Shown: piece by piece, positions 8,895-21,608 of the stretch | How the letters are laid out: each line of letters begins with the position of its first letter | Numbering within the stretch: position 1 is the stretch's first letter | Program-made: the position numbers and the translations under genes | NCBI GenBank assembly: GCA_002319075.1 | Contig: NVQB01000001.1 | Span: 3,906,001-3,970,000 of the forward strand | Length of the DNA: 64,000 nt | Source: Sphingobacteriaceae bacterium | Lineage (GTDB): Bacteria > Bacteroidota > Bacteroidia > B-17B0 > Aurantibacillaceae | Reading direction: 5' to 3' | The notes under the pieces: generated by a model | The model's input: the letters and a program-made list of their open reading frames with translations, nothing else | Told to the model about the DNA's origin: nothing | Databases searched by the model: none

Positions 8895-11402
8895 ATGAAG
8901 TTCAATAAACTCCTTACTTTTATTTTAGTTCTTTCTTCTCTAATCAGCTCCGCCCAACTCATGAATGTGCGTAAATGGAGGCCTACCGAGAGAGACTCAT
9001 TGGACAAAGCTCTGGAGTTATTTGATGAAAAAATGTTTCTGAGGGCCTTGCCTATTTTTGAAAATCTATTAGCACAACATTCCAACGAAGAGTTTTTAAA
9101 ATACAGTTACGCTAAGTGCGCGCTTTACCGTTCAGATAAGCACGAAGACGCCTATAACTACTTTAAAGAAGTTTACAATAACAATAAAAAAGTGCCCGAT
9201 ATTCAGTACGATATGGCGCTTGCGGCCCTGTACAACTATAAATTCGACGAGGCTACCGATTACATTACGCAATACGACAAAAGCAGATTCGCTAATCCTG
9301 ACGGTAAAAAAAATGCAGAGTTACTGAAACGCAACATCGTGAATGCAAAATATTACCTCGCTAATCCCACCAATGCCAAAGTAACCAACCTTGGAGCCGG
9401 CATTAACTCTGAATATGACGAATACGTTCCTGCTATTACAGCAGATGAATCGGCTTTGATTTTTACCTACGCAGGAGCAAAAAGTTTGGGAGGACGTCAG
9501 AATGAGAATCTCTCACCCGATAAATACGGGAATTTCCTTGAGGATATCTACATTTCACGCAAACAGAATAATGTTTTTCAGGCGGCAGTACCATTGGATA
9601 GTTTAAATACTACCTCGCCCGATGCAGCAATTTCTATGAGTGAAGATGGAAGCATCCTATACATCTACCAGGATATTGGCGACGGTCACGGTGACATTTA
9701 CCAGAGCTTCTCGAACGGCGACCAGTTTACAAAACCCCAAAAATTAAAAGGTGAGGTAAATTCTTATTCATGGGATGGCCACTGTTCTATCTCTCCTGAC
9801 GGTAGAACCTTGTATTTTAGTAGTGAACGTGCCGGCGGTTTTGGTGGCAGAGATATTTACAAAGCCTCGTTATTATTACCTGATTCGGTTTGGGGCAACG
9901 TGGTTAACCTGGGAGATTCTGTAAATACAGCTTACGACGATGATGCGCCTTTTATTCATGCGGATGGGATCACCTTGTTTTACAGTTCTAAAGGAAGATC
10001 CAGTATGGGCGGCTATGATGTTTTCAGAACGGTAATGCGTTTAGAAGATTCTACGTTTAAGAAAACAGAAAACTTAGGCTACCCAATTAACTCTTCTTCT
10101 GATGATATTTATTTTGTAATGGGAGCAAGCGGTAAAGTGGGATATTACAGTAGCGGAAAAAAAGAAGGCAGGGGAATGAAAGACATTTACCAGGTGGAAC
10201 CGAATTTTAACTGGCCAAAACCTTCACTCTACCTGGTAAAGGGAAGCGTTAAGACCGGAAACACCGGAGTTGAGTCCACCATTAAAGTGGAGATTACTTC
10301 AAAGAACAACAGACTTTACAAGACCCTAAAATCGAATTCAAAAACAGGTGAATATTTGGTGAGTTTGCCTCCTGGTGTAAGCTACCAATTAACATACAGT
10401 TATAAGAATCTTCCTGAAAAACGCTTTGCTGTAGATGCAGTGGAAGCAAGCGGTTATGTAGAGAAAATCAATAATGTCAACTTTGAAGAAATACCAGATG
10501 TACTAGCTTCAAACACGGCTTCACTAACTAAAACAAAAGAGCCTGCGTTAAAAACAGACACACCGAAGCCAGCAGAAACAACTCCGATAGCTAGCGTTGC
10601 TGCTAAAACAACTCCAACCAGTCAGCCGCTTGCAGTTGCAGAAAAAACTCCGACAGCGACCGGAACAGCAGTGAAAGAAGTTCCTGTGCCAGAAGAAGTA
10701 ATTAATCATGTCCCGATAGCTATCGGGACACCTAAAACGCAAACCACAGCCGTGGCTGTTGCTGTAAAAAAGGAAGAACCTGTGAACCCTAAAACGACTG
10801 CGGAGCCTGTAGCTGTTGTAGAGAAAAAGGCCCCTGTAAAAAAAGATTTTGAAGAGGATGTAGTCATCGTGGAAGATAAGAAAGCACCTGAAATTCCAGT
10901 TGCAAAAGGCTCGGGAACTCCAATTGTAGCCATTTCTGTCCCCGTAGTTGTATCTTCCAAACGTCCGATTATTTCCACCAATGACTTTACTGCTAATCCG
11001 GTAACATCCACTCCATTAAATGTGCCTGCGAAAACAGCAACGGCCTCTAAAACCGAATTTGTACCTGTAAACGGTCCTCAGGCAAAAGCAGTGAAGTTCA
11101 CCGAAAAATATAGCGATGTAACGGCTAACGATATGGAGTTTCGTGTTCAGGTAGCTGCTGTTAAGAATGATAACAACACTGTGTTACCCAATCAAAAAGC
11201 TTTAGGTAAAATAGAGAAATTAAATCTGAATGATGGATTTATAAGAATCACTGTAGGTGGTTCATTTAAGACTTTAGGAGAGGCTTTGGAACACAATAAA
11301 AAAGTTGTGAGAGCTGGTCAAAAAGAAGGATTTATCATAGCCCTTTACCAGGGAAAAAGGGTGAGTCTTGATGAGCTCGAGAAAATGGGCTTGCTGAAGT
11401 AG
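8895..11402 (+). CDS. TPR-PD40-SPOR envelope protein (PorE-like core, copy 1)
   Basis: This is an 835-residue exported protein. Its parts in order are a signal peptide (1-21), a TPR-like helical region (about 25-150), and PD40 propeller repeats (about 175-440) with segments such as CSISPDGRTLYFSSERAGGF and APFIHADGITLFYSSKG. A small carboxypeptidase-regulatory-like beta domain (about 455-520), a long Pro/Thr/Lys/Val linker (about 535-735) and a C-terminal SPOR-like domain (about 750-832, FRVQVAAV to IIALYQGKRV) follow. TPR, PD40 and the regulatory-like domain are shared with PorE of the T9SS, but PorE ends in an OmpA-type domain. Here the peptidoglycan-binding end would be SPOR. A close paralogue is at 36170-38614. 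The linker contains a perfect palindrome at 10709-10730. A role in envelope or secretion scaffolding is inferred. Confidence 0.85.
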   Translation: MKFNKLLTFILVLSSLISSAQLMNVRKWRPTERDSLDKALELFDEKMFLRALPIFENLLAQHSNEEFLKYSYAKCALYRSDKHEDAYNYFKEVYNNNKKVPDIQYDMALAALYNYKFDEATDYITQYDKSRFANPDGKKNAELLKRNIVNAKYYLANPTNAKVTNLGAGINSEYDEYVPAITADESALIFTYAGAKSLGGRQNENLSPDKYGNFLEDIYISRKQNNVFQAAVPLDSLNTTSPDAAISMSEDGSILYIYQDIGDGHGDIYQSFSNGDQFTKPQKLKGEVNSYSWDGHCSISPDGRTLYFSSERAGGFGGRDIYKASLLLPDSVWGNVVNLGDSVNTAYDDDAPFIHADGITLFYSSKGRSSMGGYDVFRTVMRLEDSTFKKTENLGYPINSSSDDIYFVMGASGKVGYYSSGKKEGRGMKDIYQVEPNFNWPKPSLYLVKGSVKTGNTGVESTIKVEITSKNNRLYKTLKSNSKTGEYLVSLPPGVSYQLTYSYKNLPEKRFAVDAVEASGYVEKINNVNFEEIPDVLASNTASLTKTKEPALKTDTPKPAETTPIASVAAKTTPTSQPLAVAEKTPTATGTAVKEVPVPEEVINHVPIAIGTPKTQTTAVAVAVKKEEPVNPKTTAEPVAVVEKKAPVKKDFEEDVVIVEDKKAPEIPVAKGSGTPIVAISVPVVVSSKRPIISTNDFTANPVTSTPLNVPAKTATASKTEFVPVNGPQAKAVKFTEKYSDVTANDMEFRVQVAAVKNDNNTVLPNQKALGKIEKLNLNDGFIRITVGGSFKTLGEALEHNKKVVRAGQKEGFIIALYQGKRVSLDELEKMGLLK
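10709..10730. repeat. Perfect 22-bp palindrome with CCGATAGCTATCGG core, inside CDS
   Basis: The 22 bases centred on AGCT at 10718-10721 form a perfect palindrome. The inner 14 bases, CCGATAGCTATCGG, are also found at 35843-35856. It is translated as VPIAIG in the low-complexity linker of the envelope protein. A partly matching stretch (CCGATAGCTAGCG) occurs about 130 bases upstream in the same linker. Confidence 0.85.
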
Positions 11403-20370: not shown

Positions 20371-20610
20371 GAATTGACGAGAGCTCTGTAGAAGGGCTGG
20401 GATTTGCAATCTCATAAAGAATTATCCCGGGTGCAGAGAATTTGGGCAATTTACGTAATTATACGGGGCACTCTGCGCTTTATATTCCTTAGAAATCAGG
20501 CAGGTACGCTGTCTGCTCAAAACAGATAATTTATTTTAAAAAAATATGGATTTAAACTAAAAAATCATTAAGTTTGCAATCCAAATTCAGAAACCTGTTT
20601 AAGTAATCTT

Positions 20611-20703
20611 GGTTAGGTGGATGAGTGGCTGAAATCACCGGTTTGCTAAACCGACGTACGGTGTTAAGCCGTACCGGGGGTTCGAATCCCCCCCTGACCG
20701 CCA
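20611..20703 (+). tRNA. tRNA-Ser (anticodon GCT), CCA encoded
   Basis: The 93-base gene folds as a class II tRNA. The acceptor stem is GGTTAGG with CCTGACC (one G-T pair), discriminator G and an encoded CCA. The anticodon loop TTGCTAA gives anticodon GCT at 20645-20647. The long variable arm is formed by GTACGG and CCGTAC, and the T arm contains GGTTCGAATCC. The long variable arm and the anticodon both indicate serine. A strong terminator follows at 20724-20751. Its 3' part is repeated downstream of the GIY-YIG gene. Confidence 0.95.
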
Positions 20704-20800
20704 CAAGGTTTTTGAATTTAAAGAAAACCCGCATTTATTGCGGGTTTTTTTGTTTCCGGATCCTTCTAATTTTACTAAAAAATTGCGATGGCTTTTTATG
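20622..20800 (+). repeat. Direct repeat copy 1: tRNA-Ser body, terminator and GIY-YIG start
   Basis: This 179-base stretch covers the tRNA from the D arm to the CCA, its terminator, and the first four codons of the GIY-YIG gene. It is repeated at 21057-21258. Apart from two replaced blocks, the two copies are identical as far as I can align them by eye. Confidence 0.9.
20724..20751 (+). terminator. Rho-independent terminator of tRNA-Ser
   Basis: AAAACCCGCA (20724-20733) pairs with TGCGGGTTTT (20739-20748) over a 5-base loop and runs into a T tract. It lies 20 bases after the tRNA and before the GIY-YIG start. Confidence 0.85.
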
Positions 20801-21096
20801 TGTACATTATTCAGAGTACCGCTGATTACTCTTATTATAAGGGCTTCACGGAAGACTATGTTGAACGGCTAAAACAACATAATTTGGGATTGTCAAAATA
20901 CACCTCGTCGAAAACACCATGGATACTTGTTTATTTAGAGGTATACGATTCAAAACGAGAGGCTCTGATACGTGAAAAAAGACTTAAAAAATATAGTCAC
21001 GAACAAATTCGCAATCTGATAAACTCACCTAGTAATAAACAAATAAATTTAGTACGTGAGTGGCTGAAATCACTCCCCAACAATGTTGGGGACTAA
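20788..21096 (+). CDS. GIY-YIG endonuclease-domain protein with tRNA-derived tail
   Basis: The 102-residue protein is a compact GIY-YIG domain of the YhbQ/UPF0213 type. Visible motifs are YVYIIQS (GIY position), YYKGFTEDYVERLKQHN (YIG position and the following Arg) and ALIREKRLKKYSHEQI (with the metal-binding Glu). The first four codons lie inside repeat copy 1. The last twelve residues, EWLKSLPNNVGD, are encoded by the D arm of the second, broken tRNA-Ser copy and the first near-palindrome in it. The gene therefore exactly fills the space between two tRNA copies. Members of this family may cut branched or flapped DNA, and some are homing enzymes. Activity here is not shown. Confidence 0.88.
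   Translation: MAFYVYIIQSTADYSYYKGFTEDYVERLKQHNLGLSKYTSSKTPWILVYLEVYDSKREALIREKRLKKYSHEQIRNLINSPSNKQINLVREWLKSLPNNVGD
21074..21092. repeat. 19-bp near-palindrome A in the anticodon arm of the tRNA relic
   Basis: TCCCCAACAATGTTGGGGA has 9-base arms around a single central A. It replaces CGGTTTG of the intact tRNA, removing the 5' half of the anticodon stem and the first anticodon base. Confidence 0.9.
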
Positions 21097-21116
21097 ACCG
21101 ACGTACGGTGTTAAAG

Positions 21117-21135
21117 TCCCCAACCAGGTTGGGGA
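21117..21135. repeat. 19-bp near-palindrome B in the variable arm of the tRNA relic
   Basis: TCCCCAACCAGGTTGGGGA has the same design as element A. It differs only at the bases flanking the central A, where an A/T pair has become a C/G pair, so pairing is kept. Confidence 0.9.
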
Positions 21136-21181
21136 GGGTTCGAATCCCCCCCTGACCGCCACAAGGTTTTTGAATTTAAAG

Positions 21182-21209
21182 AAAACCCGCATTTATTGCG
21201 GGTTTTTTT
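21182..21209 (+). terminator. Second copy of the tRNA-Ser terminator
   Basis: AAAACCCGCA (21182-21191) and TGCGGGTTTT (21197-21206) with a following T are identical to the terminator at 20724. It would now terminate the GIY-YIG transcript. Confidence 0.8.
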
Positions 21210-21258
21210 GTTTCCGGATCCTTCTAATTTTACTAAAAAATTGCGATGGCTTTTTATG

Positions 21259-21608
21259 GATCAGGCGCAAAAGGAGTGGTTTAAAATTCACCAGCTTTGT
21301 ACCAACTCTATGGTTTCTCCAGCAATACTCCGTATTTACCCAATACATTGCCGCCACACCCGTCTTTAAGCCAGATCCAGAAACAAATACAGGTGAATAC
21401 CGCTTTCGGTTAAAGGCGCAGATAGAAAACTATTTGTAGCTTAGCATGTACACTACAATCAAACTTTATTTTCTTCCCCACAGTATTTGAGCATGATCCG
21501 GCTCCTTCTCGTTTTGGCATAATATTACCTTGTATAAGGTACTATTTGTAGCTTTTAAGATCGGGATGAAAAAAACCTGGTGGCTACTGAAACCAAAAAC
21601 AAACAATT
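21259..21608 (+). other. Gap after repeat copy 2, with a possible gene remnant
   Basis: From 21259 to about 21438 there are coding-like segments in two frames. One reads KEWFKIHQLCTNSMVSPAIL and ends at a stop. The other continues as QYIAATPVFKPDPETNTGEY up to a stop at 21439. This could be the frameshifted 3' end of a lost gene, but I do not recognise the product. The rest, up to 21608, is AT-rich with no clear signal. Confidence 0.35.

Follow-up and report, generated by a model that had tools for sequence, protein, structure and literature searches.

Why does a small nuclease gene lie fitted between an intact tRNA gene and a damaged copy of that same gene on a Bacteroidota chromosome? The arrangement stands in a window of 64,000 nt, the whole stretch of DNA analysed here, in which ARAGORN calls one tRNA only, the tRNA-Ser(GCT) at the head of the locus (Table 1; positions are those of the window). 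The original prediction held that the tRNA body, its terminator and the first codons of the nuclease gene are repeated at 21057-21258, and that a GIY-YIG gene begins in the first copy and ends in the second. Both points are borne out. Three exact blocks of 17 nt (20622/21057), 22 nt (20646/21093) and 123 nt (20678-20800 = 21136-21258) join the two copies, the longest running from the 3' part of the broken copy (T') through the terminator to base 13 of a second nuclease gene, and the nuclease ORF takes its start from copy 1 and its stop from copy 2. The Bacteroidetes -7 promoter consensus is TAnnTTTG, and a promoter-like box precedes the intact tRNA.

Table 1. Features of the tRNA-Ser(GCT) locus in the window.
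Feature	Position	Strand	Basis or remark
Promoter-like -7 box TAAGTTTG	20569..20576	+	5' of intact tRNA; sequence reading
Intact tRNA-Ser(GCT), copy T	20611..20703	+	ARAGORN; Rfam RF00005, 52.6 bits
Terminator-like hairpin with T run (20721-20751) and nuclease gene leader	20704..20787	+	Inverted repeat I9
Single-domain GIY-YIG nuclease gene, 102 aa	20788..21096	+	Pfam
Broken tRNA-Ser copy T' (the 3' end of the nuclease gene lies within it)	21057..21161	+	Repeat blocks D6, D4, D1
Hairpin 1 TCCCCAACAATGTTGGGGA, replacing the anticodon arm of T'	21074..21092	.	Palindrome
Hairpin 2 TCCCCAACCAGGTTGGGGA, replacing the variable arm of T'	21117..21135	.	Palindrome
Repeat of the terminator, leader and first codons (ATGGCTTTTTATG), the start of a second, truncated unit	21162..21258	+	123-nt exact repeat
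Relic of a different inverted-end repeat family (GGATCAGGC... / ...GCATGATCC)	21258..21499	.	Matches at other loci; not counted in the element

The damage to the second copy had been described as loss of the acceptor strand. The 5' acceptor strand of T' is indeed absent, but this is not the sole change, as the anticodon and variable arms are swapped for two hairpins of the same type that the earlier description had missed. The hairpin pattern, TCCCCAACnnnGTTGGGGA, occurs twice in the window against 0.03 expected, and the window's genome holds no further site elsewhere at up to one mismatch. T' is not called a tRNA by ARAGORN, nor by Rfam up to E=1. The body of the intact tRNA-Ser(GCT) is 100% identical in four relatives, whose fetched loci carry no GIY-YIG gene there. 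A separate palindrome, TCCCGATAGCTATCGGGA, lies at 10711-10728 outside any tRNA copy, in a Pro/Thr/Lys/Val-rich open frame where it reads VPIAIGT; in-frame palindromes are known from Rickettsia.

The second unit runs for 13 bases into its nuclease gene and ends at the repeat relic, the last base being common to both. These bases had been taken for a second, lost nuclease gene and a sign of tandem units. Tandem units do occur in relatives, as detailed below, but the loss itself may not be the element's doing, and because the unit ends at an unrelated repeat it says little about the element. The relic matches other loci of the genome in two pieces (L002/L193/L140, L138) or in one (L005/L191) at 77-86% identity; these copies are longer inside, that of the window being internally deleted. 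The same inverted-end family (window 21258-21499; L138 490-1390; L193 1618-2506) was met at several tRNA loci, which may be a bias as the sampled loci are mostly tRNA loci, and its longer copies (L138, L193) contain an ORF of 199-265 aa with MAFQVGDIKLSGT. No integrase was found in the window element, whose 650 nt contain one ORF of about 100 aa, the GIY-YIG gene; the other listed ORFs within it are shorter or extend beyond it.

The encoded protein belongs to the GIY-YIG superfamily (Pfam PF01541, 54.8 bits versus a cut-off of 22.6, E=1.2e-14). Residues Y6, Y17, G19, R27, H31 and E63 are invariant in a 22-row alignment of related proteins, and we take the conserved Tyr, Tyr, Arg and Glu (Y6, Y17, R27, E63) to be catalytic. 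An AlphaFold2 model has a mean pLDDT of 86.7, with values of 65-48 over the last 22 residues, a tail that is partly encoded by T'. By sequence and fold the nearest solved chains are UPF0213 BH0048 (E 1.4e-13), EF2693 and SLX1, with I-TevI matching weakly. SLX1, from eukaryotes, is a structure-selective nuclease with two subunits. Among 50,697 phage records 21 matched the window protein, all below 60% identity, and none of the matches listed is named SegB. Carriage by phages or plasmids was rejected as a candidate, the matches (21 and 17 records, respectively) all being below 60% identity.

Small GIY-YIG genes accompany tRNA genes well beyond this locus. The window's genome (5.65 Mb, two contigs) yields nine GIY-YIG matches, seven of them small, and five of the seven lie within 350 nt of a same-strand tRNA: Ser(GCT), Met(CAT), Arg(ACG), Leu(CAA) and Leu(GAG). 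A coarser measure, using the lower gene coordinate only and 47 Rfam tRNA places, puts three of the seven within 500 bp (P=1e-5). We extended the search to 31 genomes (the window's own, 18 of the same genus and 12 of the same class), which gave at least about 155 matches, and fetched the listed small genes of the genus with part of those of the class (60 places besides the given loci). Among the matches listed, a same-strand tRNA lies within 500 nt of 37 of 95 small genes; this count covers ORFs of 70-200 aa, with L010, L011 and L029 dropped as repeats and three rows identical to others, and is free of loci retrieved by tRNA queries. With both strands examined, no opposite-strand tRNA was found within 500 nt of the fetched small genes. 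Over all loci, a tRNA stands within 300 nt of 62 of 136 distinct domains, on the same strand in 62 of 62; this count and the 55-gene set introduced below include tRNA-query loci, so that linkage is favoured in both. The order of parts varies. An upstream broken copy is absent from the window, and the nuclease precedes the intact tRNA in L009 and L358. At the tRNA-Arg(ACG) of the window's genome (L003) a T4-T69 acceptor-stem mismatch, seen by reading, adjoins the inserted element. The same build at many tRNA genes of relatives supports the predicted targeting of tRNA genes, and its recurrence across many genomes makes an assembly artefact, a possibility raised at the outset and rejected here, very unlikely.

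Nuclease lineage is largely tied to one tRNA species, with some jumps between species. The nuclease tree contains groups at tRNA-Val(TAC), Arg(CCT), Arg(TCT), Met, Ala and Phe, many forks being unresolved. With proteins from named genomes added, the labels of tRNA species require 23 changes on the nuclease tree, compared with a mean of 36.9 after shuffling, and 0 of 200 shuffles were as low (60 labelled of 62 linked proteins; two rows with misread tRNAs, Cys and Ile, were left out). Some nucleases of the Val group sit at Arg(TCT) or Met tRNAs, exceptions that we read as jumps, and in the window's genome the nuclease genes at tRNA-Met and tRNA-Arg(ACG) differ by 1 of 106 residues. A profile of the Val clade, built from five Val-type proteins, gave 50 named loci in a collection of species genomes, at least three of which (L199, L200, L205) seem to belong to the same genomes as G014, G013 and G006. 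A same-strand tRNA is nearby at 34 of the 50, in 20 cases tRNA-Val(TAC), and the linked hosts include Flavobacterium, Chryseobacterium, Winogradskyella, Mucilaginibacter, Algoriphagus, Tenacibaculum and a Melioribacteraceae MAG. No tRNA is near any of the five Firmicutes/Mollicutes matches, a difference between UPF0213 or other single-domain GIY-YIG proteins and the Bacteroidota genes, nor near 11 of the 45 others.

Broken tRNA copies recur together with the nuclease. We assembled a set of 55 distinct nuclease genes, each preceded by a tRNA at a distance below 160 nt (L010, L011, L029, L101, ORFs above 220 aa and identical domains dropped; for the hairpin-core and label counts L302 was dropped in addition). 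A recognisable T' accompanies 39 of them, mostly at the stop codon or within about 40 nt of it, and in five cases 95-231 nt or more beyond. No T' above threshold was detected in the other 16, three of which have less than 150 nt of downstream sequence; in L002 and L071 a T' is visible in the alignment though below threshold. The longest stem has a median of 8 in T' versus 5 in the intact copy (p=3.4e-6), where some T' stems may be terminators, as the stretch was widened by 30 nt when the copy had one block. A hairpin often takes the place of one arm of T': the anticodon arm in Val, Ala and Met copies, the T loop in Asn, Leu and one Val copy, and the D arm in Pro and Arg copies. A hairpin core, CCCGA...TCGGG, is found near the stop codon of 29 of the 55 genes, as 26 different sequences, compared with 1 of 47 far downstream stretches and with 1 of 55 and 0 of 55 for permuted motifs. 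It also occurs near 21 of 102 GIY-YIG genes without an upstream tRNA, and is absent from 26 of the 55 linked genes, the window included, which has the variant CCCCAAC...GTTGGGG. ARAGORN labels apparent hairpin-broken tRNA-Val copies at L076, L041 and L203 as Glu(TTC), Cys(ACA) or Ile(TAT), so that tRNA counts in such genomes may be inflated.

Features of this kind might also be expected of a host or regulatory nuclease gene placed by tRNA genes for its function, with the broken copy acting as a structured 3' RNA, be it regulator, decoy or guide, and not as wreckage. The linked tRNAs share the strand of the nuclease gene, and most of them stop 35-50 nt short of its domain; the insides of the recurring hairpin core differ, and in many cases the broken copy begins within the 3' end of the gene or straight after it. 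A functional pairing fits poorly, however, with genes that are patchy within one genus, attached to many tRNA species and followed by copies in which different arms are replaced, or with the existence of decayed and nuclease-less copies, and we regard it as highly improbable. The more specific notion that T' is a guide RNA was rejected, its basis being only a folding energy z of -3.36, which palindromes alone could give.

Patchiness is most apparent at orthologous loci. The nuclease directly follows tRNA-Val(TAC) at 6 of 30 same-genus loci and is absent from 22, the sequence after the tRNA being too short at L260 and L275; the upstream flank is widely common. At tRNA-Arg(TCT), where the upstream flank is also common, it is present at 4 of 30 loci, in one of them before the tRNA. 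At tRNA-Ser(GCT) it occurs at 1 of 30 same-genus loci, the window's own, with three loci having less than 150 nt downstream; in G012, outside these 30, a nuclease lies 445 nt after tRNA-Ser(GCT). A vertically inherited arrangement common to all relatives, which the original prediction had set against mobility, is rejected on this patchy distribution.

One clean pair of occupied and empty sites with both flanks conserved was found, at tRNA-Val, where G046 (L253) is occupied and G031 (L263) is empty (flanks 93.7% over 1430 bp upstream and 85.7% over 1227 bp downstream). In G046 the upstream flank leads into the 5' half of tRNA-Val, a hairpin replacing the anticodon arm, a short stretch and an intact tRNA-Val. 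Behind this tRNA come a terminator and the nuclease gene, then a short piece of tRNA 5' sequence and the first hairpin again, shortened by one base; the 3' half of tRNA-Val, with its native terminator, comes last. The simplest reading of this sequence would be a single inserted segment, hairpin-ended and carrying a spare tRNA, and the same picture would result if three tRNA copies had stood in tandem and the outer two had broken later. An intact tRNA is left in relatives, as had been predicted, but in this pair the native halves reside in the broken copies and the intact tRNA lies between them. The sequence of the intact tRNA equals that of the empty site, which counts against a homing-like reading on the point of how the intact copy escapes its own nuclease.

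Other candidate sites were less informative. No empty site was found for the window's own locus, where synteny is lacking and the sequence before the tRNA is matched only in short pieces, in 7 of 39 other same-genus genomes. At tRNA-Ala two seemingly empty relatives hold, by reading, scars of broken copies, so that the pair is not clean, and at tRNA-Arg(TCT) the upstream flank is conserved and the downstream flank is not; both were rejected. An 8-bp target-site duplication at L002/L003 (tRNA 3' end, by reading) was rejected likewise, as pieces of T' explain it equally well.

The closest known system is SegB of phages T4 and T6. In excerpted accounts, SegB of T-even phages is a homing endonuclease of the GIY-YIG type, free-standing and belonging to the tRNA region (PMC2988022), and in T6 it cuts within tRNA genes at the motif RAWTSGAAC (PMC13096335). 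By our reading the other strand of this motif, GTTCSAWTY, would resemble a T arm. The latter account, as excerpted, further reports amplification in T6 of a 718-bp unit of tRNA-Tyr and segB, in which the 5' end of the tRNA and the 3' end of segB share microhomology, and a link of segB to tRNAs of many kinds across phages, with tandem tRNA-segB units (PMC13096335). The Bacteroidota elements share with SegB a GIY-YIG nuclease beside tRNA genes and tandem tRNA-nuclease units. They differ in lying on chromosomes, whereas SegB is phage-borne in these accounts, and in having a spare tRNA and hairpin-broken tRNA copies, the latter absent from the SegB accounts as excerpted.

The likeness raises the possibility that the Bacteroidota loci are products of segmental amplification. 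A nuclease that breaks DNA near its own tRNA neighbour could generate tandem tRNA-nuclease units through unequal recombination; extra tRNA copies would then decay, hairpins would be secondary damage, and insertion into new tRNA genes would not be needed. The T6 unit with its microhomology is a precedent, and tandem units are present in the window and in L005, L031, L041, L053, L081 and L085 (one row set behind this list has L010, L011, L029, L004 and ORFs above 200 aa dropped). At L041 (G001:C1 about 2150511-2151379) ten tandem 89-bp units, each a tRNA-Val 5' half with a hairpin, lie upstream of the intact gene. Amplification alone would leave unaccounted for the near-identical nuclease at two different tRNA genes, the hairpin core common to broken copies and the patchy orthologous presence, although loss could also produce patchiness. 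We consider it unlikely.

Broken copies are also found where no nuclease is at hand. In the window's genome, broken Val, Leu(TAA), Asn, His, Phe and Thr copies with the palindrome or a near form of it stand, by reading, beside intact tRNAs or in tRNA clusters; library matches back several of them, the Phe copy best, and the genome search gave no GIY-YIG match at these sites. By reading, palindrome-broken His and Phe copies (L182, L183; G000:C1 4576733-4577100 and 5363263-5364069) lie apart from the intact tRNA cluster, and a Thr-like broken copy lies inside the cluster. The tRNA-Ala of the same genome is followed by three tandem 258-bp units, each with a broken Ala copy. The middle of these units looks to us like a decayed nuclease, and a profile search found no nuclease match in them. 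We read the nuclease-less broken copies and the 258-bp and 89-bp arrays as putative scars and non-autonomous derivatives.

Dispersed palindromes allow another interpretation. Partial accounts of REP/RAYT systems (TnpA-REP transposases) describe a small nuclease-type gene accompanied by dispersed short palindromes, and the Bacteroidota case would be alike in that dispersed short palindromes may accompany a small nuclease gene. By analogy, the palindromes could be the mobile DNA, the small GIY-YIG nucleases their mobilisers and duplicated tRNA genes their favoured landing places. The sequence TCCCGA-N(1-8)-TCGGGA occurs 487 times in the 31 genomes versus 36 for a reversed control. Of 35 such sites in the window's genome, some of them clustered, seven are within 500 bp of a tRNA gene (0.23 expected), and the palindrome-broken tRNA copies without a GIY-YIG match count in favour of this interpretation. 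Only 2 of the 35 are within 1 kb of a GIY-YIG match, however, and the nuclease genes themselves follow tRNA species and strand. RAYTs are HUH tyrosine enzymes, whereas the Bacteroidota protein is of the GIY-YIG type and does not qualify as an HUH tyrosine transposase; its palindrome, moreover, is often inside tRNA arms.

A sister group bears on the same interpretation. A separate GIY-YIG clade of 40 genes (SH-aLRT 95) has no same-strand tRNA within 500 nt in any case (0/40), and its flanks contain more than 5% recurring 14-mers at 26 of 40 loci versus 0 of 24 controls (p=4e-9); a recount that skips runs of N, which affects one locus (L022), gives the same 26 of 40. Stretches about 2 kb from these genes are repeat-rich in 1 of 17. 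Short repeats such as TTCGAGCGTAGTCGAGAAG often stand on both sides of the genes, e.g., at L001, L015, L022 and L043, as REPs do around RAYT genes. This suggests that the small GIY-YIG nucleases of Bacteroidota are linked to repeats in general. On balance, a REP/RAYT-like system in which the palindromes are the mobile DNA seems rather unlikely to us.

Islands and prophages that integrate into tRNA genes also target these genes and leave an intact tRNA, and to that extent resemble the elements described here. The window element differs in being about 0.5 kb long and in having no integrase, and at tRNA-Val the insertion point is within an arm, with hairpins at the junctions. Among the matches listed in open-access literature, judged on titles and abstract starts, we found no account of chromosomal tRNA-linked GIY-YIG elements and none of GIY-YIG genes with REP-like repeats; subscription journals and preprints lie mostly outside this body of text. 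The mini-elements at tRNA genes are apparently widespread and undescribed so far.

Alongside the observed anatomy, tRNA-species match, recurring hairpin core, patchy occupancy and one split empty site, we favour, with a probability of about 0.65, the reading that the window locus is a member of a large Bacteroidota family of chromosomal homing-like mini-elements of about 0.4-0.6 kb that insert into tRNA genes. Most likely, the nuclease would cut a tRNA gene that lacks the element, at the arm whose place the hairpin takes; an occupied copy would then serve as the template for repair, with the tRNA halves as homology arms, and the element would thereby be copied in by homing. The tRNA gene would be left broken at the hairpin, often of the CCCGA...TCGGG type, and an intact copy of the same tRNA would stay beside the nuclease gene, so that the host survives. 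The boundaries of the insertion are probably marked by the hairpins, which probably also shield broken copies against cutting; later unequal recombination and decay would have left the tandem units, the arrays and the scars without a nuclease. Any damage would protect broken copies, and homing leaves the retention of a particular hairpin core unaccounted for.

A bolder proposal, which we offer tentatively, is that these loci represent a new class of mobile DNA. Hairpin-ended elements would break into a tRNA gene at one arm, supply or retain a spare copy of that tRNA, and be moved by an SLX1-like single-domain GIY-YIG nuclease that recognises its cognate hairpin and tRNA arm; the sister clade would play this part for REP-like repeats that lie outside tRNA genes, as a GIY-YIG counterpart of RAYT/REP.

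If the homing-like reading is true, selfish nucleases lie inside essential tRNA genes across a whole phylum, and matched occupied and empty sites provide material for direct tests of homing. Such elements would help to explain why Bacteroidota genomes have extra and broken tRNA copies, misread tRNAs and some of their short palindromes, and would illustrate how an essential gene can house an element while the host stays alive.
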